DNA of 48,477 bases, taken from NCBI GenBank assembly GCA_905479805.1, contig CAJQNY010000235.1, positions 1 to 48,477 on the forward strand, given 5' to 3'. Origin of the DNA: an uncultured Arenicella sp. (lineage in GTDB: Bacteria; Pseudomonadota; Gammaproteobacteria; Arenicellales; Arenicellaceae). How positions within the stretch are numbered: position 1 is the first letter of the stretch; the number at the start of each line of letters is the position of its first letter. Position numbers and translations under genes: made by a program. Below are positions 12,166 through 40,896 of this stretch, one piece after another. A model generated the notes under the pieces. The model was given only the letters and a program-made list of their open reading frames with translations. It was not told the DNA's origin and searched no databases.

Positions 12166-13899
12166 ATGATCGATCCTAGTGTGTCTAAATCTGTATTAAT
12201 TATTTCCGACGACTCAACACTCGTTGACTCATTGTTAAAAAATACCAAAGGCGACGAGAAAATTGTTGCTCGCGATAACATCAATGAATTGTTCGAAGAC
12301 ACAACATTGCTCGAAGACAATGCGATCGTGATTTTCGATATTGATACTGGAGAAAATAGCCTCAGCGGTGCGATCGATCAAATAATCAATATTAAGCAGC
12401 AGGATCCTAGTCAGGTATTGATCCTCGTTGGAGAGGCAGAGTTGTTAGGGGAAGTGTTGAAGTCAAATATTCAACCACTGATCTATCGCGCCTTTAACAA
12501 GCCGGTTAGTCCAAATCAAGTTTCTCTCGCGTTTAATTCCGGCAGTGTTTTACACCAAGACTTAGTGAAGCGGCAAGCGGCTGGCGAAGATATTTCGTTG
12601 ATTGGACCTGCAGAGAACCGCACCAGTGTCGATAGTATTGCCAATGAGCGCAAGAAGAGTAATACCGTTGCCTACGCCGCAATTGGTTTTTTGGTTTTGG
12701 CGGTATTAGGTTGGTTACTCGCTGGCGGCAGCAATGAAGAAAATGTAGCAGCCCCAGTGATTGAAACAATAGAGTCCACGCCTATAGATCAAGAGGTTGT
12801 TAACGTCTCTGCCTCGGTACAACGGATTAATGAATTAAACCAAGAGGCCGCCACAGCAATGTTAGAAGATCGAGTCATTGCTCCTAAAGGAGATAGTGCG
12901 CTTGATTATTACGATCAGGTTCTCGCAATTGATGCTTACGACACAACCGCTTACCAGGGTAAAAAGGCCATTGCTGATCGCCTCAGAGCCTCTTATAACA
13001 CTTTGGTAAATAACGCCGAGTTTGATCGCGCGTTAAAGGTTATCAATGTCCTAAATCGAATTGAACCACTAAACTTAGATAATGATGCTCTGCGCAAGGG
13101 CTTAGAAAAGTCTATCGATGTTCATGTTAAGAAGATTCAGGAAAATGGAACTTCCGAGCAAATTGCGGAAACAGCAGCCGTCTTGGAAAAAATTGAAGCT
13201 GATTTCGAAGGGTCTAAGTCAGCTTCGGACGCATTAAAAGCTGAGAAGGTGTTGGTAGCTAAGATAGATAAAGCCTTAGAAGGAGAGAATTTAACTCCAC
13301 CGAAAAAAGGTAATGCTTATTCTCTGGTGTCTGATTCTCTCAAAGCCAATACGGTTAGCAAAGCAAACATAGTACCGAGGGTTAAGACCCTGAGCGCTAA
13401 ATTATTAGTGATTGCAAATAAGGCGATTGCAGGTAAAGAGGCCGAGAACCTTGCCGAGGCTGAAAAAATAGCGTCTTTAGTAAAACGCCTCAATGTTGAT
13501 CGTAAACCCTTGTCTGCATTGAACAAAAAAATTGCAGCACTCAAAGCCGCGGCAAAAGAAACCGTTGCCAAAGTAGATGCTGAAGCGGTTCCTGAAAAGG
13601 TCGTACCGGAACCAGTGAAAATAATCCCTGCGAAAATAATCAGCAGAGCAAGTCCTCGTTACCCAAATAGAGCCCTCAATAAGGATCAAGAGGGTTGGGT
13701 CGAAGTCAATTTCGCCGTCAACATTAAAGGTGAACCGATAAATATTTCGGTCAAGGCTTCGGAACCCCCTAAAGTTTTCGATGAAGCAGCCTTACGAGCT
13801 GTAAAGAAATGGAGATTCTCTCCCGCTCGCAATGAAGAAACCGGCAGAGCGGTGGTGAGCGACGCATTTACGACTAGAGTTGCATTTAAACTCGATTAG
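12166..13899 (+). CDS. Receiver-like / transmembrane / TonB C-terminal fusion protein
   Basis: A 577-residue protein with an unusual order of parts. Residues 8-125 look like a response-regulator receiver fold: paired acids D15-D16, an Asp at the end of strand 3 (D58 in IFDID) and K112-P113. The usual Ser/Thr of strand 4 is not evident, so it may be degenerate. Residues 167-186 form one membrane span after a basic patch. Residues 200-480 are a periplasmic, mostly helical Ala/Lys/Glu-rich region with TPR-like parts. Residues 491-577 are a TonB C-terminal domain (SPRYPNRAL, then GWVEVNF and AVKKWRFSPA). It would put a signalling-type domain in the cytoplasm and a receptor-contacting domain in the periplasm. 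It stands alone, convergent with pgi, 3 kb from the Ton operon. No function is assigned. Confidence 0.8.
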   Translation: MIDPSVSKSVLIISDDSTLVDSLLKNTKGDEKIVARDNINELFEDTTLLEDNAIVIFDIDTGENSLSGAIDQIINIKQQDPSQVLILVGEAELLGEVLKSNIQPLIYRAFNKPVSPNQVSLAFNSGSVLHQDLVKRQAAGEDISLIGPAENRTSVDSIANERKKSNTVAYAAIGFLVLAVLGWLLAGGSNEENVAAPVIETIESTPIDQEVVNVSASVQRINELNQEAATAMLEDRVIAPKGDSALDYYDQVLAIDAYDTTAYQGKKAIADRLRASYNTLVNNAEFDRALKVINVLNRIEPLNLDNDALRKGLEKSIDVHVKKIQENGTSEQIAETAAVLEKIEADFEGSKSASDALKAEKVLVAKIDKALEGENLTPPKKGNAYSLVSDSLKANTVSKANIVPRVKTLSAKLLVIANKAIAGKEAENLAEAEKIASLVKRLNVDRKPLSALNKKIAALKAAAKETVAKVDAEAVPEKVVPEPVKIIPAKIISRASPRYPNRALNKDQEGWVEVNFAVNIKGEPINISVKASEPPKVFDEAALRAVKKWRFSPARNEETGRAVVSDAFTTRVAFKLD

Positions 13900-16659: not shown

Positions 16660-16769
16660 GATCAACTATTCATTCCTGAGTAGTTACAGTGCTTGCACAG
16701 GTTAAACTTAAAATATTGTTCTAAATTTCTATCGCCTTAGAGCTATCTTAGAGAAATTAAGGCAATAAA

Positions 16770-16793
16770 AAAGGGGTGAACAATCACCCCTTT
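16770..16793 (-). terminator. Intrinsic terminator of the Ton operon
   Basis: AAAGGGGTG/CACCCCTTT 9-bp stem with a 6-nt loop, followed on the minus strand by a T-run (A-run at 16767-16772). It lies just after the last exbD stop, ending the nine-gene operon before gap. Confidence 0.85.
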
Positions 16794-16815: not shown

Positions 16816-17226
16816 TCATTCAGTTGATATCGACACAGAAGGTAAGTCGACTTTTGCCTGACGAATACCGTCGACAGCCTGGATGATATATTTTGTTTTC
16901 GCCTTCTTATCTACCTTAACAACCACAGCTGACTCCGGACTCTCAGCCTTGAGTCGTGTAATAGTTGGTTTAACAGCGCGAAAGTCTACCACTCGGTCTT
17001 GGATCTTAATCTCATCCAATTTTGTCACCTTAACCACAATGGGCTTAGGTGCATCTGGATTTGGCGGATCTTCACTAACGGGAGGACTGTATAACCCCAC
17101 TCCAGACTCCTTCACAAAACTCGCGGTAACAATAAAGAAAATCAGCATGATAAAAACCACATCTAACATCGGCGTGATATCAATATCGGTTTCTTCTTCG
17201 TTAAGAGATTTACCAAGTCGTTTCAT
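16816..17226 (-). CDS. ExbD/TolR-family protein (second copy in the operon)
   Basis: A 136-residue inner-membrane protein of the ExbD family, the partner of ExbB-type proton channels. The single membrane span (about 23-43) carries the family hallmark DITPMLDVVFIMLIFFIVTASF, including the proton-path Asp, and the rest is periplasmic with the usual ExbD fold. It is about as long as ExbD1 at 21522 and closely similar in its first 45 residues. It is the last gene of the operon, 51 nt after the second TtpC and followed by an intrinsic terminator. Together they may form an extra TtpC-ExbD channel, as no second ExbB is present. Confidence 0.93.
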   Translation of the reverse strand: MKRLGKSLNEEETDIDITPMLDVVFIMLIFFIVTASFVKESGVGLYSPPVSEDPPNPDAPKPIVVKVTKLDEIKIQDRVVDFRAVKPTITRLKAESPESAVVVKVDKKAKTKYIIQAVDGIRQAKVDLPSVSISTE

Positions 17227-17277
17227 TCAATTCTACCTATTTTAAATTCTATTAGAGCAATACTACAAGTGCGTCGA

Positions 17278-18708
17278 CTAACTATGATTTTGATATTGTT
17301 CTGCTACCAAACCATTCGCAGTTTCTTCGAGAGTTTCTTCAATCCGCTTAGCGCGGCTTGAAGCTAACCAATGTAAGAATACTGTAGGAATCGCTACCAC
17401 TAACCCTAGAACCGTTGTCACAAGAGCTTGTGATATACCCCCAGCCATTGTCTGAGGATCACCCGCACCAAAGAGTGTAATTGCCTGGAATGTTTGAATC
17501 ATGCCGGTAACGGTACCCAATAGTCCAAGCAGTGGAGCTACAACCGCGATGATTTTAATAAACATAATCCACTGATTGAGCTTAGGCCCTTCCTTCAAAA
17601 TGCCTTCCGCAAGCTTTAATTCCATAGATTCAGGATCAGAACTTGGGTTATCTTGATAAATCTTAAGTACGCGTCCCAAAGGATTTTTCAATGAAGGACG
17701 CTTAAGATCCTTAGCTTGCTTTTTAACACTACTTTCTACACCCGACAAAACCATAATACGGAATGCAGCAATAATGAGAGCAATAATACCGAGAGAAATG
17801 ATCACATAACCGACTACACCACCCTCTTGAACCTTTTCCCACAGAGAGGGCCTTTCAACCAAGGCTGACAAAAGTGCGCCTCTGGTTGGGTCCAATTGAA
17901 ACGAAGTAACTCCGTCGGTTGATGATTGCAAAGCATTTGATTGACCGATAAAGCCGGAATCCATCTTTCGATCCAACAAAACTAAACCGCGCTCATTGTC
18001 GTAATTTGCAATGTCGTCACCCGTTACAGCTGAAAATATACCGACTCGAGTTATTTCTCGATCTTCAGTTGCAAAAACGTTGATCAGATCACCTGCTTCA
18101 TTTTCTTCTTGGCCACTCACATAGGTAACAGGAGCGGTGAATTTCACAATCTTACTTTGCTCATTCATTTCATTTTGAAGTTGAAACCAAAGGTCTTCGA
18201 TTTCATCAATAGAAACGAGATCGGTTAAACTCGCCATCTTAGCGACCATTAGCCGTAGGTTCTCAGAACGCTCTGGATAGTGCGTACTAATAAGCGACGT
18301 TTTATAGTCCTCTTGAGCTTCACTAGCCGTCTGCTGTATCACACCAAACAACTCTTTCAGATCACCCAACTCTTTGGCCAAATCAACTTGAAGCTCCTCA
18401 ATAGTGGTTTGATTGACGGTAAATTGAGCATCGAGTTGATCACTAATACGTTCTTGACGAGCTCTCTCATTCTTCATTGAGCTCAAGCGGCCTTGCTGCT
18501 TGTTACGCTCCGATTTAAATGTCTGTTCGCGTGATGCATTGGTCGACTTATCCTTAGATGCAGCAGACCGGGTCGCAGATACTATTCGGTTGATATCCAA
18601 TGCACTAGCACTAGATTGAGCCATACTAACAGTTGGCAACATGGTCGCAGCAACCAACAGGGGTGCAACCAACGCTGCTATTACATTTCTTGTCATGCGA
18701 AGTCTCAT
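17278..18708 (-). CDS. TtpC-like MotA/TolQ/ExbB family protein (second copy)
   Basis: A 476-residue inner-membrane protein. A signal peptide (1-30, ending near VSMAQ) leads to a periplasmic part with a coiled coil at about 55-130 and a globular region to about 300. Three membrane segments follow (near 300-325, 380-405 and 425-450), the latter two carrying the MotA/TolQ/ExbB signature LLGLLGTVTGMIQTFQ and GGISQALVTTVLGLVVAIP. This is the shape of Vibrio TtpC, a part of the TonB2 energy-transfer complex. GGAGG eight bases before the ATG at 18708 supports the start, which overlaps the stop of the DUF3450 gene by 1 nt (TAATG). It is a paralogue of the protein at 22724. Confidence 0.9.
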   Translation of the reverse strand: MRLRMTRNVIAALVAPLLVAATMLPTVSMAQSSASALDINRIVSATRSAASKDKSTNASREQTFKSERNKQQGRLSSMKNERARQERISDQLDAQFTVNQTTIEELQVDLAKELGDLKELFGVIQQTASEAQEDYKTSLISTHYPERSENLRLMVAKMASLTDLVSIDEIEDLWFQLQNEMNEQSKIVKFTAPVTYVSGQEENEAGDLINVFATEDREITRVGIFSAVTGDDIANYDNERGLVLLDRKMDSGFIGQSNALQSSTDGVTSFQLDPTRGALLSALVERPSLWEKVQEGGVVGYVIISLGIIALIIAAFRIMVLSGVESSVKKQAKDLKRPSLKNPLGRVLKIYQDNPSSDPESMELKLAEGILKEGPKLNQWIMFIKIIAVVAPLLGLLGTVTGMIQTFQAITLFGAGDPQTMAGGISQALVTTVLGLVVAIPTVFLHWLASSRAKRIEETLEETANGLVAEQYQNHS

Positions 18709-19505
18709 TACATTACCTCCGGTGCAACTAGTGGGAGGTGCATCAGGCCCCTAGACTCTTTACCTTGGGTGATCCTTATCGCCTGCGCGATACCTTCATC
18801 AAATGAAGAGTCCAGATCATTCCAGGATTTATCGTTTTTGTTCCAATAACCCGACTGTGTGCCATCAAGTGTTTGGTAATATAGTCCAGAGCGTCCAACT
18901 TGAAGAACATTTACAGTTAGGTCGCCTTCAGATAAGGGTAGTGTCTCGACATATACTGCGATCGTAGCACCATAATTATTCTCGATAGAGTAAGCCTCGA
19001 GCACCTGTCTGAATCGCTCTGCAGCTGAGACATTGGCATTAGTAAGGTAGCCGCGAATCCGTTTAATTCTGGCTTCTCTTTCAGGTTTCTTAAATGGAAT
19101 ATCAGCCGCAACAAATTTATCTAAGCCTTCGATCATTCGAAGCATTAATGGAACAATCTGCCGCTCAATTAATGAAGCATCTTCAATTGATTGCTCGAGC
19201 TTACCCATCGCCTCTTCTTGCGCAGTAAGAGTACGACGAAGACGATCGTTATAGACTTTCAATCCCTCAACGACTTTACGCTGCTGATGATATTGAGAAA
19301 CGATCTTATCCGTCGCTTCAGATAATTTATCGATTCGGCCTTGCGACGCAGCACCTGATTTTTGTCGATTCAAGCCGCTATTAACAATCTCATCTGTCTT
19401 ATCAGCCCAAGAAACACTGGGTGTCAGAGCTAGTAATGCGAGGGATACTATCCCCGTTGCCACTCGCTGCTGTTTAGCAGAGTTTTTTCGTAACACTGTA
19501 CTCAT
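18708..19505 (-). CDS. DUF3450 family periplasmic protein (second copy)
   Basis: A 265-residue exported protein of the DUF3450 family, found with TtpC-type Ton systems but of unsettled biochemical role. Its signal peptide ends near VSWADK; a long coiled coil (about 45-110, VVEGLKVYNDRLRR) precedes a conserved half with DIPFKKPERE, AAERFRQVLEAYSIENNYG, GRSGLYYQTLDG and a Trp-rich end. The frame continues 29 codons upstream into the TPR gene, but TGAGG six bases before the ATG at 19505 and the signal peptide fix the start there. It is a paralogue of the protein at 24066 and lies 13 nt after the TPR gene. Confidence 0.87.
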   Translation of the reverse strand: MSTVLRKNSAKQQRVATGIVSLALLALTPSVSWADKTDEIVNSGLNRQKSGAASQGRIDKLSEATDKIVSQYHQQRKVVEGLKVYNDRLRRTLTAQEEAMGKLEQSIEDASLIERQIVPLMLRMIEGLDKFVAADIPFKKPEREARIKRIRGYLTNANVSAAERFRQVLEAYSIENNYGATIAVYVETLPLSEGDLTVNVLQVGRSGLYYQTLDGTQSGYWNKNDKSWNDLDSSFDEGIAQAIRITQGKESRGLMHLPLVAPEVM

Positions 19506-19518
19506 TATTAACCTCATC

Positions 19519-20847
19519 TTAAACTTCGACGTCTGTATTAATGACAATTTCTTTTTGAAGCTCTTTAATTCGATAAACTTCATTGTCGACATACTTAATC
19601 CAATTACGGGCCGCTACAGATACTTTCTCAAACTTGAGTGCTCTGTTAAACGCCGCTTTTGAGCTTTCATACTTCTTTTGTTCAAATCGAACTAGACCTT
19701 GGCTGATCAGAGTCTGTCCAGTATTTTGTAATTTACCTTTACTAAGCGCCTTTGAAATTGCGCTGTCTGCTTCAGCCCATCGATTTAGTGCAATATACGA
19801 CTGCGCTAATTGATTATAAAGCTTGCCATCGGAAGATCTTGAAGCGGCCTTGCTCAAAGGATCAAGCGCTTTTTCGAACTCCTTAGAAAGGTAGAGCGCC
19901 TGCGCATAAATTCGATAATTTTTTAAATCTTTTTTAACAATCCCGTCATTCAGGCCTTTACCTATGATCTCGGAAGCTTTGTGGGGATTATCTTGAGACA
20001 TTTGCAGTGAAGACAAGGTGACAATTTCAGACTCTGCGGTCAATAACCCCTGGTCGTACATAGCTTGATACATTGCAGTCATACGCGCTGGATCATCTAA
20101 CTCGTTATACACACCACCCATCGTCAGAAGATAGGTTTTCTTCGGGTAATGCTGTACGAGCTGCTTAAGTACCGGCAACATTTTTCGATAGTCCGACTTT
20201 TGACGATAGATACTGCTTAACAGATTTAACCAACCTTCTTTAGGAGTACTGCCTAAATCGATATATTTTTGAATACCCTTTTGCACCATTGGGAGTGCTC
20301 GGTTGTAGTCCTTGAGCATATAGTGCGCTTGGCCGACCAACATGTAACCATCAGCCGTTGGTTCTTCTTGTGTTTTCAACCAACGCTGTGCGTAATTTAG
20401 TGCTTCCCGATAGTTCTCCTGAGAGAAATATACCTGGGCAATCACGTACATTATTTGGTTATAGAAGCTTACTGGCACCCCTTCTTGCAAAGACATGATT
20501 TTCTTGAACTCACTCAAAGCACCACGCAAATTGTCCTTACTAAAAAAGATGTTACCTTTATAATTAGCGACGTACGCTTTTTCAATGTTATTAAGGTCAG
20601 GCTCTGCTTCTAATTTGGCCAGTAAACGCTGTGCTTCGGTGATATTTTCAGCGTCGAATGCCTCGTTGATTTTTTCGAAGTTTTTTACATGCTTTTGACG
20701 AATAGATTCTATTCGAACTGCCTTGCGTTTAGTACGTCCTTCACCTTCTTGAGCACTTGCTCCTGCTAGCCCTAAAGAAAGCTCTGCGGTAAACGCAATA
20801 GGCGCTAATAAAACGGCAATCAATATTGGTTTGATAATTCTATACAT
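19519..20847 (-). CDS. Exported TPR-repeat protein of the TtpC/TonB2 operon
   Basis: A 442-residue protein with a signal peptide (cleavage near AGASAQEG) and tandem helical TPR-like repeats from about residue 50 to the end. It matches the TPR gene that follows tonB2 in Vibrio TonB2 operons; its role is probably scaffolding in the periplasm, as inferred from context. Two ATGs two codons apart are possible; AGAGGT touches the first, while the second (20847) sits six bases after it, so I choose the second. It is 71 nt downstream of tonB. Confidence 0.85.
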   Translation of the reverse strand: MYRIIKPILIAVLLAPIAFTAELSLGLAGASAQEGEGRTKRKAVRIESIRQKHVKNFEKINEAFDAENITEAQRLLAKLEAEPDLNNIEKAYVANYKGNIFFSKDNLRGALSEFKKIMSLQEGVPVSFYNQIMYVIAQVYFSQENYREALNYAQRWLKTQEEPTADGYMLVGQAHYMLKDYNRALPMVQKGIQKYIDLGSTPKEGWLNLLSSIYRQKSDYRKMLPVLKQLVQHYPKKTYLLTMGGVYNELDDPARMTAMYQAMYDQGLLTAESEIVTLSSLQMSQDNPHKASEIIGKGLNDGIVKKDLKNYRIYAQALYLSKEFEKALDPLSKAASRSSDGKLYNQLAQSYIALNRWAEADSAISKALSKGKLQNTGQTLISQGLVRFEQKKYESSKAAFNRALKFEKVSVAARNWIKYVDNEVYRIKELQKEIVINTDVEV

Positions 20848-20918
20848 AGTCATACCTCTAATACTTTTTCTGAATCGGTAATTTAATAGTCGATGAAGAT
20901 AAATTGGCCATTAACTGC

Positions 20919-21518
20919 CTAACAGCCACTTTCCATTTCAAATACAATTCTGATTGGAACATTGGGAACATCAACCGGCTTACCACCCACTTGACGCGGC
21001 TTATATTTATACTTCAATGCCGCTTTACTTGCTGATCGCTCAAACATAGAAGACGAACTCGCTGTTACTCTTGGATCACGTGTACCGCCACTTGCCGTAA
21101 CGGTATATGTCAGCTCAACCCACCCACATAAGCCACGCTCTTGCGCACGACGCGGATATATTGGAGGTGCTCTAAAAATAGGCAGATACTCTCCATCATT
21201 TGAATTAAAACCCTTTAGATCACGATTGATGCCAACCTTCACAGCGCCCAGATTCAAGTTGCTATTAATATCTACCCTGTCCGGTGTCAGGTCAGCCTCT
21301 GGTACATCTGGCTGTTCTTGCACATCATCGGGGCGATCAGGTTTAGGGGCAATTGTCTGTAAATCTTCGTTCTTATCAGAATGTACGAAATCCGGCAGTT
21401 TTACGGATTTTTTAGCCGCTAAATCTGGCTCATCCATTTTGATCAGTTGGTACATACCGAAGATCAATGCAAGTGTAACGAATACAGATAGTACCGATGC
21501 GATGATAGTTCTAGACAT
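20919..21518 (-). CDS. tonB: TonB-family energy transducer
   Basis: A 199-residue protein with an N-terminal membrane anchor (about 6-26), a Pro/Asp-rich linker (60-105) and a C-terminal TonB domain starting at APPIYPRRAQERG. It should carry the force from ExbB-ExbD to TonB-dependent receptors on the outer membrane. It is short like Vibrio TonB2. Two cysteines, in ERGLCGWV near residue 130 and as the last residue, could form a disulfide that staples the domain. GGAG before the ATG is a good ribosome site. It lies 3 nt after exbD, with the full complex in order upstream. A numbered symbol such as tonB2 is not certain. Confidence 0.9.
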   Translation of the reverse strand: MSRTIIASVLSVFVTLALIFGMYQLIKMDEPDLAAKKSVKLPDFVHSDKNEDLQTIAPKPDRPDDVQEQPDVPEADLTPDRVDINSNLNLGAVKVGINRDLKGFNSNDGEYLPIFRAPPIYPRRAQERGLCGWVELTYTVTASGGTRDPRVTASSSSMFERSASKAALKYKYKPRQVGGKPVDVPNVPIRIVFEMESGC

Positions 21519-21521
21519 AAT

Positions 21522-21926
21522 TTACTCCGACTCCGTTGCAATCGTTGGAACAGGAATTCCCGCATCTTTCAAAGCTTGAACAACCTTCATAACAGTTTCA
21601 GCGGTTGAATTTTCATCAGCCTGCACAATCACCTCACCATCGGGAGTTTCAGCACGCAAGCGACTTAAATTTGCTTTTACCGCCCGAGGATCCAACTTAC
21701 GTCGATCCAACCAAATCTCATCTTTTTCATTGATTGCTAAAAGAATGCTGGCCTTGGGTTTTGATACAAAAGTTTCAGCATCTGGCTTTTTAACCTTAGC
21801 CCCACTCTCTTTAATAAAACTCGCGGTAACAATGAAAAAGATCAACATAATAAAGACCACATCCAGCATCGGCGTGATGTCAATTTTGGTGTCATCTTCT
21901 TGTTTGTTTCGACTAACTCGTCTCAT
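21522..21926 (-). CDS. exbD: ExbD-family proton-channel subunit
   Basis: A 134-residue protein with one membrane span (about 20-42) containing DITPMLDVVFIMLIFFIVTA, including the proton-path Asp. The periplasmic part (45-134) is a compact ExbD domain. GGGGAGA precedes the ATG. It is located between exbB and tonB with 3 nt before tonB, which fits a coordinated ExbB-ExbD-TonB complex. Confidence 0.94.
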   Translation of the reverse strand: MRRVSRNKQEDDTKIDITPMLDVVFIMLIFFIVTASFIKESGAKVKKPDAETFVSKPKASILLAINEKDEIWLDRRKLDPRAVKANLSRLRAETPDGEVIVQADENSTAETVMKVVQALKDAGIPVPTIATESE

Positions 21927-22032
21927 TTAATTCTCCCCATATTAGGGTTTAATCTGTTTCTAATAGCTCAATCTTATACGCTCATCTAAATTGTTTTAGG
22001 CTTTAGTATTAGCCCAACAACTATTTAGGAGC

Positions 22033-22563
22033 TTAGTGATCCAGCGTTAAATGCTCGCCTAACAATTCACGTTCTTGCTCATATTTACGTTGCAACCAAA
22101 AGCTTAGGAAGAGGCCAGACAAAGCCGCCACCATTCCTGCCATGGTAGGCACAGTTGCTTGCGATACACCACCTGCCATCGCCCTCGCGTTGCTGGTGCC
22201 ATTGACAGCCATAACTTGGAATACTTCAATCATTCCAGTTACTGTCCCCAACAAACCAAATAACGGAGCAAGTGCTACACACGCCTGAATCATAGGTAGA
22301 TTCTCGCGCATCTTGATCGCCACCGAAGAAACTAATTCCTCACGAACCTGATGAGCCGCCCATGAGGTACGCTCTTTACGGCCCTCCCACTGGTCAATCG
22401 CTGCTTTTACCGCTTGCTTATGAGGTCCACGGAAATACATTATTCGCTCTAAAATCATGAACCACATAATAATAAGCAGGCCGGCAATCAAATATAAAAC
22501 CGGACCGCCCAAGTCCATAAAATTACGAATTGATTCGACGATGACTAAAATAAATTCTGGCAT
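22033..22563 (-). CDS. exbB: ExbB-family proton-channel subunit
   Basis: A 176-residue inner-membrane protein with three spans (about 18-38, 92-118 and 130-158) and the MotA/TolQ/ExbB signature LAPLFGLLGTVTGMIEVFQVM followed by AMAGGVSQATVPTMAG. It is the short, TonB2-type ExbB. AGAGGT lies before the ATG. It sits between the TtpC and ExbD genes, in the classic order. It should form the pentameric proton channel with ExbD. Confidence 0.94.
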   Translation of the reverse strand: MPEFILVIVESIRNFMDLGGPVLYLIAGLLIIMWFMILERIMYFRGPHKQAVKAAIDQWEGRKERTSWAAHQVREELVSSVAIKMRENLPMIQACVALAPLFGLLGTVTGMIEVFQVMAVNGTSNARAMAGGVSQATVPTMAGMVAALSGLFLSFWLQRKYEQERELLGEHLTLDH

Positions 22564-22657
22564 CTGTTGAAACCTCTTAGTTTTTACTAGTGTCGATCAG
22601 CAAAAAAGTGCACGAAGCGACGACTAGTAAGGTAAAAATCTCTATTAGTTTGATGCC

Positions 22658-22696
22658 CTAGTTGAGAAAACTAGTTGAGAAAACTAGTTGAAAAAG
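22658..22696. repeat. Three 13-bp tandem repeats between ttpC and exbB
   Basis: Units CTAGTTGAGAAAA at 22658 and 22671 are identical; a third, with two changes, is at 22684. They lie in the 160-nt untranslated spacer of the operon. Confidence 0.75.
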
Positions 22697-22723
22697 CTCT
22701 CAACCAAGGCAAGTCAATTCCTA

Positions 22724-24064
22724 CTAACCTTCTATTTGACGCGCAACCATTCCAGCTGACTGCTCTTCCAATATTTCTTCTACGCGCTTGGCTTTACTTG
22801 CCGCCGCTGTATGAAGTAATACGATTGGAATCGCGACAACCAAGCCACACACCGTGGTCACAAGCGCCTGTGAAATACCGCCCGCCATCAACTTGGGATC
22901 GCCGGCACCAAACAAGGTAATTGACTGGAACGTTTCGATCATACCCAATACCGTTCCAAGTAGACCTGCCAAAGGTGCTACCACAGAAACGATCTTCAAG
23001 AACATTAACCAAGACGTCAGCTTTGGCGTCTCTTTCATGATCGCTTCAGAAAGCTTGAGCTCCAAGGCTTCGGTATCACCACCTGGATTGTTCTGCGCTA
23101 CTTTCAATACGCGGCCCAGTGGGTTTTTGTCTGAAGGTGAACCAGGATTAGCCGCTTGCTTCTGTACCGCGCTGGCAATACCCATTAGCGTTACAATCTT
23201 GTAGATTGCAATCAATGCAGCCAACAAGCCTACACCGAGGATAATGTAGCCAACTGGACCACCTTGATCCACTCGCTCCATCAAGCTTGGGCTTTCAACT
23301 GCCGCACCCAAAAGCGTTCCTTTAGTCGGATCAACTGAAAAACCAACCGTACCGCCAGAAGCGCCCATCAAATCATTGGCTTGGCCAATAAAGCGGCCGT
23401 CGGGTTGACGTGGCAATTCAGCCACACCGCCTGCACCATATGTCAAATAGGCGTCTTCACTCACAAGGTTAAAAACACCTACTCGAGTAACGCTTCTTTC
23501 TTCCTTATCGCCGGCCGCTGTCGCTACCGTAGTATTAAACTTAGAAACCTTGCCTTGTTGCACGATTTCATTAAAGACTTCACGCCACACAGACTCAATC
23601 TCACCAGCCGTTAGCAAAGTATTCGATTGGTTGATTTTCTTAGAAATCGCACCAAACTTAGCTGATCGACCTGGGAATTGTGCTGAAATATTCGAAGTAT
23701 CGAAAGCCGCTTCTGACTCACCCGTAACCTGCTGGATAACACCAAAAAGCTCTTTCAGATCGCCAAGCTCTCGCTCACGTAGACTACGCAAGCCATTTAG
23801 CTCTTCTTCGTTGGTCGCAAATTGATTCTCTAAGGCTTCACTACGCGCTTCAAGCTGTGCTCGTTGCGTTTGCAATGCTGATACGATGCCGGCTTTGCCT
23901 GCACCTGCGCCACGAAAGCGCTTCTCAAGATCCGCAGCGGCTTTAGTTTTCTGTAATGTTCCAGTTCTCACTTGCTCTAACAATTGATCAAGGTTTTGAG
24001 CTTGAACTGGCGCGATGATGATGGCTGCAGTCAAAGCTGCTGCTAATATAAGTAGACGCTTCAT
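22724..24064 (-). CDS. TtpC-like MotA/TolQ/ExbB family protein (first copy)
   Basis: A 446-residue protein built like Vibrio TtpC: signal peptide (1-22, ending PVQAQ), periplasmic coiled coil (about 30-110), a globular periplasmic part and three membrane segments (about 268-293, 350-375 and 395-420). The proton-channel family signature is clear in the last two (GLLGTVLGMIETFQ and GGISQALVTTVCGLVVAIP). It shares long near-identical stretches with the protein at 17278, such as LGDLKELFGVIQQ and ITLFGAGDP. It starts directly after the DUF3450 stop, with a GAGGG ribosome site. It is predicted to work with ExbB, ExbD and TonB in energy transfer to the outer membrane. Confidence 0.9.
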   Translation of the reverse strand: MKRLLILAAALTAAIIIAPVQAQNLDQLLEQVRTGTLQKTKAAADLEKRFRGAGAGKAGIVSALQTQRAQLEARSEALENQFATNEEELNGLRSLRERELGDLKELFGVIQQVTGESEAAFDTSNISAQFPGRSAKFGAISKKINQSNTLLTAGEIESVWREVFNEIVQQGKVSKFNTTVATAAGDKEERSVTRVGVFNLVSEDAYLTYGAGGVAELPRQPDGRFIGQANDLMGASGGTVGFSVDPTKGTLLGAAVESPSLMERVDQGGPVGYIILGVGLLAALIAIYKIVTLMGIASAVQKQAANPGSPSDKNPLGRVLKVAQNNPGGDTEALELKLSEAIMKETPKLTSWLMFLKIVSVVAPLAGLLGTVLGMIETFQSITLFGAGDPKLMAGGISQALVTTVCGLVVAIPIVLLHTAAASKAKRVEEILEEQSAGMVARQIEG

Positions 24065-24065
24065 G

Positions 24066-24752
24066 TTATGAACCCTCTGGTGCAGAAATTGGAAGATTCA
24101 TCAATTCAGGCGCGATTGTTTTAGCCGCCACCTTAATTGCTTTGCGAATATCTCGATTGTGACTGCTGTCTAGCTCAACCCACTGCCCAGCACTCTTATC
24201 CCACATTCCGGAAACTTTCTGATCCTTAGTCTGATAATAAAGACCTAAGCGACCGACCCGGAGCATATCAACAGGCGTTTCACCGACTGTACCTGGATAG
24301 GCTTCGTAAGTATTACCGTATTCGGTTTCAACCCCGTAAATATCCATGATGTTGCGGAATCGATCTGAAGTGGATGCTTCAGAATTAAGCATCAACGCCT
24401 TTAGATCACCGACACTCGCTTTACGCTCGTCTAAATGAAAAGGTAAATCGGCGTTAATGAACTGCTCCAAAGACCCTAACATTTTTGTCAGTATCGGCAC
24501 TACTTGAGGGCCTAAATCTTTCGACTGAACAATAGATGCTCGAATTTCGCCTTTCGCTTTTTGTTGCGCGTCCAACTGCTTTGCCAATTGATCATTGTAG
24601 ACTTTTAAACCTTCTACAAGTTTCAGTTCTTTAGCAAACGCTTGGTCCACTGACGCACCTGATGTCTGCGCTACCGCGGTAGTCGCAGCGGCCAGGCCTA
24701 TAACAACAATTGCTATAGCTTGACTCATCCGATTCAACACAGTTTTTTTCAT
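24066..24752 (-). CDS. DUF3450 family periplasmic protein (first gene of the Ton operon)
   Basis: A 228-residue exported protein with a signal peptide ending near TTAVAQT, a coiled coil at about 35-75 (VEGLKVYNDQLAKQ) and the DUF3450 half: DLPFHLDERKA, TSDRFRNIMDIYGVETEYGN, GRLGLYYQTKDQ. First gene of the operon, directly before the TtpC gene. Two starts are possible: TTG at 24758, four bases after GAGGT, or ATG at 24752, ten bases after; I list the ATG. A candidate promoter overlapping an 18-bp dyad lies just upstream. Confidence 0.87.
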   Translation of the reverse strand: MKKTVLNRMSQAIAIVVIGLAAATTAVAQTSGASVDQAFAKELKLVEGLKVYNDQLAKQLDAQQKAKGEIRASIVQSKDLGPQVVPILTKMLGSLEQFINADLPFHLDERKASVGDLKALMLNSEASTSDRFRNIMDIYGVETEYGNTYEAYPGTVGETPVDMLRVGRLGLYYQTKDQKVSGMWDKSAGQWVELDSSHNRDIRKAIKVAAKTIAPELMNLPISAPEGS

Positions 24753-24777
24753 TTTCAACTTAACCTCGTGTTAATGA

Positions 24778-24813
24778 AATCTATTGTAATAGATTCAATA
24801 GTGGTGGATTCAA
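24778..24813 (-). promoter_or_regulatory. Candidate promoter overlapped by an 18-bp dyad upstream of the Ton operon
   Basis: Minus-strand -35 TTGAAT (24813-24808), 16-bp spacer, -10 TATTAC (24791-24786). The -10 sits in the middle of AATCTATTGTAATAGATT (24778-24795), 8-bp perfect arms with a 2-bp centre, where a repressor could block RNA polymerase. It does not look like a standard Fur box, although iron control would be expected for a Ton system. Confidence 0.35.
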
Positions 24814-31347: not shown

Positions 31348-33381
31348 TTAACGGGTTCTTTCGAATAACACAGGCGTTTGCTCGCCCGTAATTAGCTCAT
31401 TCATTAGCATTTGAGTTTCTGCGCCGATACGGCCGTCGCTGATGATGCCAAAACGCGTTTGCAGTGCGTAGGCTCTTTGCGACATTTCCAAATCAAATTC
31501 TGGACTCAACACTGACTCTAACGCAGCGATACCAGCCCGCTCTAGCGCTTGATTCAACTTTAACTTAAGCGCCAAGATTGACTCTCCGCTAGCACCCTGT
31601 GCAAAAACCCTCTCATTACTTAATGAACCGGCTAGGCCGTCATCAGGTCGCCAAAAAATAACGCCATTACCATTCCAACGTGCTTGTAACTCTCTAACTG
31701 GAACGGTTCGAACAGTGGTGCCTACCGCCACTTCGGCCAAGTCTTGGTTAACGTCACCGATAATCACCCGGTGCAATTGATTCTCATGATTCAACACAAG
31801 AATAGCCGGTCGGTTAAAACGCATCATTTGTTCCCAGTCACCAAAGCCAACACAAGATAGGTTTTTATCTAACAGGACATCGCAAGCGGGTTGAATGAGC
31901 TGGTCAGGGAGCGTCTCTCCCCATAGCTCGGTTAGGTTCCTAAATGCTGATATTCTCCCAGTAGTGTCTGCAGAAGCTTCAAGCAACAATGCCAGTTCGC
32001 TATCCCGATATTCATCAGAAGAATTTAATGTGCTGCTAATTGAAGGGCTCAAGGCGCTATTGTAAAGAGCCGCGGAACCTTCGATCTCCTCATCAATTGA
32101 CGTATTAAGCCGCTGATCACTATCTGACTTGCTTAAGCCCTCGATCGATAATTCGGGGTCGACCGTCGCATCAAGTTCTTTGTCAGCGATAACTACGACC
32201 CCTGGCGAAAGATCGTCAACTTTCTCCTGCGGCTCTTTTGGGGTTTCGCCTATTGTGTTTTCAGCAGCAGTTGGCAGAGCATCGCCTTGTACTCTTTCTA
32301 GGCTGCCGTCAACCAGCGCTGACTTTGTTTCCACCTGCTTGATACCGAGCTCATCTTCGGGATCGTCACTTAGTCGTTCTTCCGAGCCAGCTTGCGTACG
32401 AATTTCATTGACCGAACTCTTCGGGCCTCCCAGATTGTCTAGACCGGAGGCTGGTTTATTCGTAAAAACCCACCACAACAACACATTCAGCATGACAACC
32501 ACAATTGCCAGCGACCACACCCCATTTGATGCCGCAAACTGTTTGATTTTAGAAATGACACCATCCTGATTAGAGGTATCAAAAAACACTTCCTTAGATG
32601 CCTCCTTTATCATCTTAGCATCGACCACAACTTGAGAATTGGCATAAGCGGCTAATAGCGCATGATCTGCGAGTACGTTAATTTTGCGCGGTATTCCTTC
32701 CGTCACAGTGTGTAATTTGTGCAGTGCCTGCTTACTGAACAATGCCTGCTTACAACCCGCTACGCCCAAACGATAATTTACGTACTCCTCAATCTCATTT
32801 CGCTGCAACGCACCTAGATGGTAACGAGCAGTCACTCGTTGCGCTAATTGTCGCAAATCATTTCGAGTCAGCAAATCGTTGAGCTCAGGCTGACCAATTA
32901 AAATTATTTGCAGTAACTTTGATGTATTAGTTTCTAAATTCGTTAGCAACCGAATTTGTTCGAGCACATCACGACTTAGTAGTTGCGCTTCATCAATGAT
33001 TAACACCGTATGTCGGTTATCTGAAAATGTGCTTAGCAAATACTCATTGATAAGGTCTAGTAGTTGCTTTTGAGTCGCGTCCTGCGAATAAGGTATTTTC
33101 CGTTCGTCACAGATAGTTTGAAGAAGCTCAACTTCATTGATATTCGCATTAAGAATTAATGCAATGTCTACATTGTCAGGAAGCTGCCCCAACAAATTGC
33201 GACATAAAGTTGTTTTCCCTGTACCGACCTCTCCCGTCAAGACGATAAAACACCCACCCTGCGACAGCCCGTAACTCAAATGAGCCATCGCCTCTTTATG
33301 GCGTGAACTCATATAGAGATATTGAGGATCAGGGGCGATCGAAAAAGGTCGCTCTGTTAATCCGAAATAGGATTCGTACAA
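31348..33381 (-). CDS. gspA: Type II secretion ATPase/peptidoglycan-binding protein GspA
   Basis: A 677-residue ExeA-type protein. Residues 1-270 are an AAA ATPase with MYESYFGLTERPFSI start, Walker A GEVGTGKTT (50-58) and Walker B VLIIDEAQLLS near 128. A membrane span lies at about 290-310. A long acidic, disordered linker runs from 320 to 455. A periplasmic part follows that looks like a degenerate C39-peptidase-like domain (about 465-590), and a peptidoglycan-binding domain (about 595-665, ending DGRIGAETQMLM). ExeA remodels or anchors to the cell wall during secretin assembly. The C39-like call is tentative. It begins the gspA-gspB pair; the gap to the exonuclease gene is about 160 bp. 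Confidence 0.88.
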   Translation of the reverse strand: MYESYFGLTERPFSIAPDPQYLYMSSRHKEAMAHLSYGLSQGGCFIVLTGEVGTGKTTLCRNLLGQLPDNVDIALILNANINEVELLQTICDERKIPYSQDATQKQLLDLINEYLLSTFSDNRHTVLIIDEAQLLSRDVLEQIRLLTNLETNTSKLLQIILIGQPELNDLLTRNDLRQLAQRVTARYHLGALQRNEIEEYVNYRLGVAGCKQALFSKQALHKLHTVTEGIPRKINVLADHALLAAYANSQVVVDAKMIKEASKEVFFDTSNQDGVISKIKQFAASNGVWSLAIVVVMLNVLLWWVFTNKPASGLDNLGGPKSSVNEIRTQAGSEERLSDDPEDELGIKQVETKSALVDGSLERVQGDALPTAAENTIGETPKEPQEKVDDLSPGVVVIADKELDATVDPELSIEGLSKSDSDQRLNTSIDEEIEGSAALYNSALSPSISSTLNSSDEYRDSELALLLEASADTTGRISAFRNLTELWGETLPDQLIQPACDVLLDKNLSCVGFGDWEQMMRFNRPAILVLNHENQLHRVIIGDVNQDLAEVAVGTTVRTVPVRELQARWNGNGVIFWRPDDGLAGSLSNERVFAQGASGESILALKLKLNQALERAGIAALESVLSPEFDLEMSQRAYALQTRFGIISDGRIGAETQMLMNELITGEQTPVLFERTR

Positions 33382-38703: not shown

Positions 38704-40896
38704 TTACTGCGGATTAATCTTCAATGCAGGATCACCAATGATTTGGTAACCCAAAATTATTCCGGAATTACCGGGAGACCGTGCTGCAAACGCTTTCTTG
38801 GCGGCGATCACTGCTTCGCCAATCGTGATGTTTGCAGCAAACATTCTCTTATTTAGTTCTATCCCAAACTTTCTCTCACCTGACGCCGTAGTAAGCGTCG
38901 ACGCACCCAAAACGGTTGCAGCACCGTTGGTACCACTGGTTAAGAAAACGTCAGCCATGGAATTGCCACCTGGGTCTACGAAGAATGCGTTCCAACAACC
39001 CCACTGCGTAATTAAAGTAGGTCGACCTGTATTCGCTAAGGCTGGAATCTCGCTCGCCGTCAACATAGCAGGGCTTGTTCTACCCCAGACTTGTTGCGAA
39101 GAGTGTCCGATGTAAGCCGTAACCAAAACACCATTATTAATCGCCGCAATCGTTTTGTCGTGAGCTACTTGATCACCGTCCACATCCGGCAATGCAAGAT
39201 ATTGTTCGCTAATGCTAGAAGACCATTGTTCAGGCATAACATCCATCATGGCAGTCACATCATTAGTAAAAGACACGCTATTTCCAGCGTCTTCTTTATC
39301 TGCGGCAAACAAAATACTACCCGCATAACCCGTTCTGTCTTCGTATTGTTTAAGCTTTCCGACGACTAGCCCCAGTTCAGCCTTGGTTCGTACGGACAAA
39401 CGACCTACTGGTATATCCGGAACACTGTCACCATCGATATCTCCATACAAAGCATCAGTTGGTGTTTGTTGAACATCCAGTGAACCGCCTAAAGTGGGTC
39501 GGTAATTGGTAGGTATAAAACTTATAGATTCAGAGATATGATTCTTATAGTCATAGGTATCGCTGCCGATTAATACCACAAAACGAGTACCCAAATTGGT
39601 TGCTGCAAATTTAATATAATCATGAATTGCTAGGGCATTGGGCTGATGATTCCCAAACTGACCATAAATTTGTTCAACATCTACAACCTTTACAGCATAC
39701 TCGTTGCGCAATGCAACCAGCTCACTAAGTTCAGCTCCCTTGAATGCGTCGTGAGTAATTATCAAATATTCCGCTGACTCACTGGAGATATCTTTATCAT
39801 CATTAATCAATCTAATAGCAGGTTTTTTAAATCCTTGGGGTCCTACAACTATATATTGCCCAGCGACACCACCGGTGCTGAACTCTGCTGCTTTCGATTG
39901 CTTTTTGACCCCTTTGATCTTCACCACAGAACCATTGTGATTGCGACGATAAACCGAGGAATTACGCCCGCTTAAGCCAGAAGCCTTAACTTGCTTATGC
40001 GTTATCCAGCCCTCTAAATAATCTCCATTGACGCCGATGCCTCGTGGGTAATGAACAGTCAATTTATTTAGACCAATCACATCAAATGGTACATCGGCAA
40101 TACTGCGGCCATAGAGCGTAAACCTATTTCCTGTATCTGATACAGGGACGTTCTCTATTCGCATGGTATGTAGGGAAAAGCCATCAAACTGCTCATTACC
40201 AACTTCAGCACCATTAACATTGGCGACTATATGGTGATCATTGGTAGCGATTAAGGTATCGCGCAAGCCGTAAACCTCCACTTCAATAGTTGCTGTCGCG
40301 CCGACCAGACCAGGCAATTCAAAATCAATACTCGGGCCTTCCGTATCTCCTGTTTTATAGATAAATGTTTGCCCAAAATGCCAAGGGTCGTCACCGCTAT
40401 CAGCTAGATAGTCAAACTGGTAATTTTGCTCAAATTGGGTGCTCTGAATATAATTTTCTGATGTGGACTGAGTCTTGTCCAACCTGTTCTTTACACTGCG
40501 AATTTGTTTTCTAGGCGCTCCGTAATGGAGCGTAATCACTCGCTTATCCGTATAACGGCTAATTAAAGTCTCACTGTAAAATTCTATATAACCACCAGGA
40601 CCGAAAAACTTACTTCTACCCTGTGACTTATTTTGGCCTTTAGTCCGGATTCCTACTTGCTGACCATCGCTTCTTAGACTAAATTTCCGGTGTTCGAATC
40701 CGCTGAGATCAACGCCTTGCTCACCGAGCTCCTCATAACTTATACGGTGCATGCCTGTTTCAGGAGTTACAAAATTGATGATTCCAGTGCTAGAGCTTTT
40801 CGCCAGGACGAAAGGTGAAAATACACATACCAGGGCAAAGAGTACCCAAGGTAGGAACCGAGAAAGCTGTAATGCCGCTTTTACTAAAAGTTTCAT
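38704..40896 (-). CDS. C25-family (gingipain-like) cysteine peptidase, secreted
   Basis: A 730-residue exported protein. A signal peptide covers about 1-32 (hydrophobic core, end near FVLAKS). The N-terminal 300 residues are a beta-rich propeptide-like part. From about 385 a C25 catalytic core is visible: VVLIGSDTYDYK, DALYGDIDGDSVPDIPVGRLS near 485 and the proposed dyad His598 in YIGHSS and Cys634 in QWGCWNAFF. The end GYQIIGDPALKINPQ is normal for the family; no type IX sorting domain follows, so export is presumably Sec plus another route such as type II secretion. AAGGAGGTGA just before the ATG is a near-perfect ribosome site, and the ATG overlaps the upstream stop by 4 nt. Cleavage specificity is not predicted. 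Confidence 0.88.
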   Translation of the reverse strand: MKLLVKAALQLSRFLPWVLFALVCVFSPFVLAKSSSTGIINFVTPETGMHRISYEELGEQGVDLSGFEHRKFSLRSDGQQVGIRTKGQNKSQGRSKFFGPGGYIEFYSETLISRYTDKRVITLHYGAPRKQIRSVKNRLDKTQSTSENYIQSTQFEQNYQFDYLADSGDDPWHFGQTFIYKTGDTEGPSIDFELPGLVGATATIEVEVYGLRDTLIATNDHHIVANVNGAEVGNEQFDGFSLHTMRIENVPVSDTGNRFTLYGRSIADVPFDVIGLNKLTVHYPRGIGVNGDYLEGWITHKQVKASGLSGRNSSVYRRNHNGSVVKIKGVKKQSKAAEFSTGGVAGQYIVVGPQGFKKPAIRLINDDKDISSESAEYLIITHDAFKGAELSELVALRNEYAVKVVDVEQIYGQFGNHQPNALAIHDYIKFAATNLGTRFVVLIGSDTYDYKNHISESISFIPTNYRPTLGGSLDVQQTPTDALYGDIDGDSVPDIPVGRLSVRTKAELGLVVGKLKQYEDRTGYAGSILFAADKEDAGNSVSFTNDVTAMMDVMPEQWSSSISEQYLALPDVDGDQVAHDKTIAAINNGVLVTAYIGHSSQQVWGRTSPAMLTASEIPALANTGRPTLITQWGCWNAFFVDPGGNSMADVFLTSGTNGAATVLGASTLTTASGERKFGIELNKRMFAANITIGEAVIAAKKAFAARSPGNSGIILGYQIIGDPALKINPQ

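Follow-up and report, generated by a model that had tools for sequence, protein, structure and literature searches.

Among the closest described systems is the TonB2 system of Vibrio, whose operon has the order ttpB2-ttpC2-exbB2-exbD2-tonB2-ttpD2 and in which TtpB2, TtpC2, and TtpD2 are each essential for TonB2 uptake (PMC6957404). In Xanthomonas, the cluster tonB-exbB-exbD1-exbD2(-exbD3) places extra ExbD genes in one Ton cluster, much like the third ExbD of some Arenicella described below; iron uptake does not require its exbD2, whereas trans-envelope responses do, and only ExbD is multiplied, with no TtpB or TtpC reported (PMC3551730). The tonB1 cluster of Teredinibacter turnerae is an ExbD-bearing Ton set without its own ExbB, although the cluster carries two tonB genes and has been classed apart from the TonB2 and TonB3 clusters, which bear ttpB/C/D (PMC10734418). 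The ExbB-ExbD-TonB and TolQ-TolR-TolA complexes of E. coli are 5:2 motors (PMC9389320). Compared with E. coli ExbB, TtpC carries a long additional periplasmic arm. The E. coli Ton complex has no known counterpart of TtpB or TtpD.

In the window (the whole 48,477-nt stretch of DNA that was analyzed, from an uncultured Arenicella metagenome-assembled genome, or MAG, that is 78% complete), nine genes lie on the minus strand from 24752 to 16816, all in one direction and followed by a terminator. The features, in order of transcription, are:

24776 to 24796, minus strand: inverted repeat of the GAATCTA/TAGATTTC type, directly 5′ of TtpB1 (in 9 of 11 Arenicellaceae leaders)
24066 to 24752, minus strand: TtpB1, the first DUF3450 copy, with a signal peptide and a shortened N-terminal coil (PF11932, 2.2e-57)
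22724 to 24064, minus strand: TtpC1, a periplasmic coil/beta domain plus a MotA/TolQ/ExbB channel domain (PF01618, 2.2e-28)
22033 to 22563, minus strand: ExbB, short form, the sole ExbB of the operon (PF01618, 2e-23)
21522 to 21926, minus strand: ExbD1, with the transmembrane (TM) aspartate motif PMLDVVF (PF02472, 6.4e-28)
20919 to 21518, minus strand: TonB, 199 aa, with one N-terminal TM segment and a TonB C-terminal domain (PF03544, 2.5e-13)
19519 to 20853, minus strand: TtpD, a periplasmic TPR protein (TPR models; position as for Vibrio ttpD2, PMC6957404)
18708 to 19505, minus strand: TtpB2, the second DUF3450 copy, with a full-length coil (PF11932, 2.2e-72; tree; AlphaFold model)
17278 to 18708, minus strand: TtpC2, the second TtpC, which keeps the ancestral pore motif GLLGTVTGMIQTFQAI (PF01618, 1.1e-29; tree; AlphaFold model; fold search)
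16816 to 17226, minus strand: ExbD2, with the PMLDVVF TM helix kept and a diverged periplasmic domain (PF02472, 6.7e-24; tree; alignment)
16764 to 16793, minus strand: terminator hairpin with a T-run, which ends the nine-gene unit (sequence; stem scan)

Pfam matches were strong for all nine products (DUF3450 twice, MotA_ExbB three times, ExbD twice, TonB_C, and TPR), giving the order TtpB1-TtpC1-ExbB-ExbD1-TonB-TtpD-TtpB2-TtpC2-ExbD2. The first six genes belong to the same families and stand in the same order as the Vibrio TonB2 operon, as a first-pass annotation of this DNA had proposed, so the names TtpB, TtpC, and TtpD transfer directly; the Vibrio operon stops after ttpD, whereas the Arenicella operon adds three paralogs, has a shortened TtpB1, and has no standout Fur site. 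The same annotation had described paralogous DUF3450, TtpC, and ExbD genes following in tight coupling before a terminator, with no ExbB among them, and open reading frames, Pfam families, local sequence, and gene content all agree with this description. The paralogs are 39% (TtpB1/TtpB2), 45% (TtpC1/TtpC2), and 41% (ExbD1/ExbD2) identical. Set 2 (TtpB2-TtpC2-ExbD2) has no ExbB, TonB, or TPR protein, and since three of six components are missing it would not constitute a TonB2 system by itself; only the nine-gene unit does. None of the operon proteins reached the NCBIfam equivalog cut-offs for E. coli-type ExbB, ExbD, TolQ, or TolR, as would be expected of a separate branch that is related to the E. 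coli type without being equivalog to it. In the open-access library searched, a scope outside which most subscription journals fall, three papers mention both Arenicella and TonB, and none of the three treats the operon by title or abstract.

The arrangement of the nine genes suggests co-transcription. The most likely start of TtpB2 is the ATG at 19505, rather than the longer open reading frame start at 19592, which leaves ∼13 nt between the TtpD stop and the TtpB2 start; TtpB2 and TtpC2 overlap in TAATG, TtpC2 and ExbD2 are separated by 51 nt, and the hairpin at 16793–16764 is GC-rich and followed by a T-run. At the ttpD-ttpB2 junction of the window, a promoter would fit only inside the ttpD gene, whereas the corresponding gap is ∼75–105 nt in most relatives, so that an internal promoter is possible there. 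The best Fur-like site upstream of the operon matched 12 of 19 positions, the same as in shuffled sequence, which gives no sign of Vibrio-like Fur control; such control is not among the traits that define the TonB2/Ttp family. A scan for sigma-70 promoters found fewer sites than shuffled sequences (9 vs. 17) and is uninformative. The leaders with the GAATCTA/TAGATTTC inverted repeat (9 of the 11 Arenicellaceae leaders compared) also carry conserved CATTA and GAGGTTA elements, and the repeat may be an operator or a leader hairpin; its consensus fold had no covariation support. Separately, the 160-nt gap between TtpC1 and ExbB (22564–22723, minus strand) holds a short direct repeat (ttttctcaactag repeated).

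The doubled arrangement is characteristic of the family. Two DUF3450 genes were present in 20 of 21 sampled Arenicellaceae genomes, the exception (G018) having none, and the pair lay 4.7–5.4 kb apart in all 16 genomes with both copies on one contig; in the remaining four two-copy genomes the genes were on separate contigs. Direct reading established the nine-gene order in 13 loci (the window and 12 others); in two further loci (L037 and L038) the contig ends just past TtpC2. Across 321 genomes sampled from Gammaproteobacteria, DUF3450 was present in 75, of which three were Arenicella, and a closely spaced pair was found in none of the other 72. The TonB2-type operons of Gammaproteobacteria, Alphaproteobacteria, and Myxococcota have the same six genes, some with two tandem ExbD genes; another ∼60 loci, drawn from a range of Proteobacteria and from Myxococcota, and 40 chosen gammaproteobacterial loci contained a single operon, mostly in the order TtpB-TtpC-ExbB-ExbD-TonB-TPR, with variants that included a second tandem ExbD (several lineages), an undetected ExbD or TPR gene, a displaced ExbD, and, in one locus (L109), several TonB-like genes, some of these loci reaching contig ends. 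None of these comparison loci held a second TtpB-TtpC pair, and none held a complete TtpB-TtpC-ExbD set with flanking DNA that lacked ExbB. Some Arenicella carry a third ExbD paralog 3′ of ExbD2 (L035:12002, L036:12040, L043:12239, L047:3347, and L055:1467). Set-2 genes also appeared in one genome of another family (G034; L012/L033), on a 3.7-kb Arenicella-like contig with 78% identity to the query, for which binning contamination is the probable cause. The doubled cassette is a genuine expansion of a known system, long established and specific to this family, and neither a chance nor a one-off arrangement.

Phylogenetic trees, obtained by quick searches with SH-aLRT support only, agreed on the origin of the second set. 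In each of the DUF3450, TtpC, and ExbD trees, set 1, set 2, and a single-copy outgroup operon from an uncultured genome labeled Pseudomonadales (L048) formed one clade (support 97–100), within which set 1 and set 2 were each monophyletic (99–100) and the third ExbD copies branched with ExbD2. The concatenated TtpB-TtpC-ExbD tree recovered the same clade (100), the branching of L048 relative to the two sets not being settled there, and in the unduplicated ExbB, TonB, and TPR genes L048 was sister to Arenicellaceae (100). The joint clade and the sister position of L048 indicate that ttpB-ttpC-exbD doubled on the Arenicellaceae stem, or possibly that the duplication happened slightly earlier and was followed by loss in L048. 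Given three agreeing trees, one duplication event would be the simplest account, and several events are possible. The ancient duplication of a module within one operon that the first-pass annotation had suggested is therefore borne out by all three gene trees as well as the concatenation, and the second set groups with set 1, not with non-Ton MotA/TolQ systems.

Each copy has kept and lost different ancestral features. Of the conserved columns (defined for DUF3450 as those kept in ≥90% of outgroup proteins), TtpB1 retained 17 of 26 and TtpB2 22 of 26, TtpC1 and TtpC2 each retained 81 of 92, and ExbD1 retained 25 and ExbD2 24 of 26, ExbD2 having lost a conserved alanine. TtpB1 lacks ∼34 N-terminal coil residues in every Arenicellaceae member examined, its PF11932 match beginning at profile position 57, and is 228–233 aa long in all relatives, as against about 255–290 aa for full-length copies. 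In TtpC1, two residues beside the pore motif, Q405 and A409 in TtpC2 numbering, are replaced (Q by E, T, or D; A by S), whereas neither residue varies among the 60 outgroup proteins or the 18 TtpC2 proteins. On the other side, ExbD2 has the longer branch (1.01 vs. 0.43) and the more diverged periplasmic domain. The ion-path threonines (GLLGT and TT; T399, T431, and T432 in TtpC2) are invariant in both TtpC copies, and the PMLDVVF motif is present in both ExbD copies, whose TM helices are 87% identical. Decay of one set is contradicted by the similar retention of conserved columns. Both copies are under constraint, and neither set is the intact ancestral one; the ancestral states lost in set 1 argue against an unaltered TonB2 set 1 with set 2 as a spin-off, and the mosaic of losses suggests a division of labor between the copies.

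Possible partners of the two sets were sought in the rest of the genome. Outside the operon, two MotA_ExbB genes with adjacent ExbD/TolR genes and one MotA-like gene are present in the window's genome, and no further free ExbB for set 2 was found in this incomplete MAG; complete congeners show a like pattern, except that G005 and G015 each have one additional MotA_ExbB gene. TonB-dependent receptor plugs numbered 16 in the window's genome and 18–38 in more complete congeners, and these receptors are possible clients of the operon's motor. Distance-residual correlations ("mirror tree") were calculated in runs of 11 and 13 taxa, in which several values hinge on single taxa and gene adjacency confounds the comparison. 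With that confounding, TtpB1, TtpC1, ExbB, and ExbD1, which are neighboring genes, correlated strongly with one another (r 0.59–0.89), the highest ExbB values being those with TtpB1 and TtpC1 (r 0.82–0.85), ExbB also correlated with TtpC2 and TtpB2 (0.66–0.69; 0.69 for TtpC2), and TtpB2 correlated with TtpC2 (r 0.65). A correlation of TonB with set 2 in the first run was gone in the second.

Taken together, the reading that we favor, with a probability of roughly 0.55, is that the doubled TonB2/Ttp operon builds one enlarged proton-driven Ton machine in which both sets share ExbB, TonB, and TtpD. After ttpB-ttpC-exbD had doubled and been retained in one transcription unit, pentameric wheels of ExbB and the channel domains of TtpC1 and TtpC2 would surround axles of ExbD1 and ExbD2 in the inner membrane; the N-terminal domains of TtpC and their soluble homologs TtpB1 and TtpB2 would form long periplasmic arms, and force would reach TonB-dependent receptors through the single TonB with TtpD. 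The ancestral roles would be split between the two sets, with ExbB, TonB, and TtpD common to both. A shared machinery is favored because ancestral features are distributed as a mosaic, the loci examined outside the family included no ExbB-less TtpB-TtpC-ExbD set, and no other free ExbB was found in the genome. In a fold search the TtpC2 channel domain matched structures of ExbB and TolQ. The stoichiometry of the wheels, the sharing of subunits, and the function in uptake are inferred.

The strongest competing explanation, which we consider possible and clearly less probable than a shared machine, is that a pentameric TtpC2 ring, the ExbD2 dimer inside it, and TtpB2 form a separate motor driving something besides the operon's TonB, for example signaling, envelope maintenance, or the conserved neighboring 577-residue TonB_C protein. 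TtpC2 has all the elements of a self-sufficient channel, namely an ExbB/TolQ-like fold with T399, T431, T432, and GLLGT kept, and ExbD2 retains an intact TM helix with its motif; ExbB and the set-1 genes covary as one block, a pattern confounded by adjacency, and precedents exist in the other task of Xanthomonas exbD2 (PMC3551730) and in the T. turnerae tonB1 cluster without exbB (PMC10734418). Against this, ExbB accompanies TtpC in the other complete loci examined, set 2 holds neither TonB nor another output protein, and on intact contigs set 2 always occurs together with set 1. Somewhat less probable again is a Ton machine with two wheels, one of TtpC1, ExbB, and ExbD1 acting on TonB and the other of TtpC2 and ExbD2 powering periplasm-spanning arms of TtpB2 and TtpC2; if true, differently composed ion motors would cooperate in one outer-membrane transport event. 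That set 2 merely supplies more arm and axle subunits to one motor is unlikely: both sets are in one operon and the ExbD TM helices are nearly alike, but the paralogs are only 39–45% identical, and pure dosage would not preserve family-wide, copy-specific changes such as the TtpB1 deletion and the TtpC1 Q/A replacements. Transfer of set 2 from an unrelated Mot/Tol/Ton system, with which the low identity between copies would agree, is highly improbable and is contradicted by the trees, all of which set it beside set 1 and L048 and show no relative from a foreign lineage.

The proposed arms draw on a comparison of DUF3450 with TtpC, in which, according to Pfam, the AlphaFold model of TtpC2, and the fold search, a secreted N-terminal domain is fused to a MotA/TolQ/ExbB domain. 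In the AlphaFold model of TtpB2 (mean pLDDT 83.5), a helix of 98 residues is followed by two more helices, five strands, and a final helix. The model of TtpC2 (mean pLDDT 86.2) likewise opens with a helix of 98 residues and continues with two main helices, five strands, and a further helix ahead of the channel domain; the order of elements is identical and their lengths similar, the models being read separately and without superposition. At 1.5 Å per residue, a 98-residue helix would be ∼147 Å long. Comparison of DUF3450 and TtpC periplasmic domain profiles gave a colinear match over ∼190 columns (E 3e-5, probability 72–74%), in which coiled coils can inflate scores. Colinear profiles and matching predicted architecture make it probable that DUF3450 is homologous to the TtpC periplasmic domain, as a secreted arm without a channel. 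This link is only partly new, since a 2025 paper counts DUF3450 among the N-terminal appendages of MotA/ExbB-like proteins (PMC12505986). When the DUF3450 model was compared with PDB folds, no match was significant, and a PDB sequence search with the DUF3450 profile returned mostly coiled-coil noise.

Several neighboring genes were also recorded. The 577-residue protein (12166–13899, plus strand) has a TonB C-terminal domain, one TM segment, and a large N-terminal region that resembles a receiver on visual inspection and has no Pfam match, and a homolog lies a few kilobases past the operon in most Arenicella loci. Elsewhere in the window are a 730-residue protein with a Peptidase C25 (gingipain-type) domain (38704–40896, minus strand), which adjoins a 440-residue protein without a Pfam match, and a 677-residue AAA ATPase (31348–33381, minus strand) with a weak, below-cut-off match to a GspA C39-like domain.

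TonB2-type motors are widespread, and Arenicellaceae offer a natural experiment in which three of the six components, and no others, were duplicated and then retained over the age of the family. The retained triple identifies ttpB-ttpC-exbD as a unit of evolution whose copy number can rise while ExbB, TonB, and TtpD stay single, and the predicted architecture shared by DUF3450 and TtpC provides a testable model for a domain of unknown function, that of an arm and its channel-less homolog. For the family itself, these results suggest that the Arenicellaceae operon encodes an enlarged form of a nutrient-uptake machine already known.
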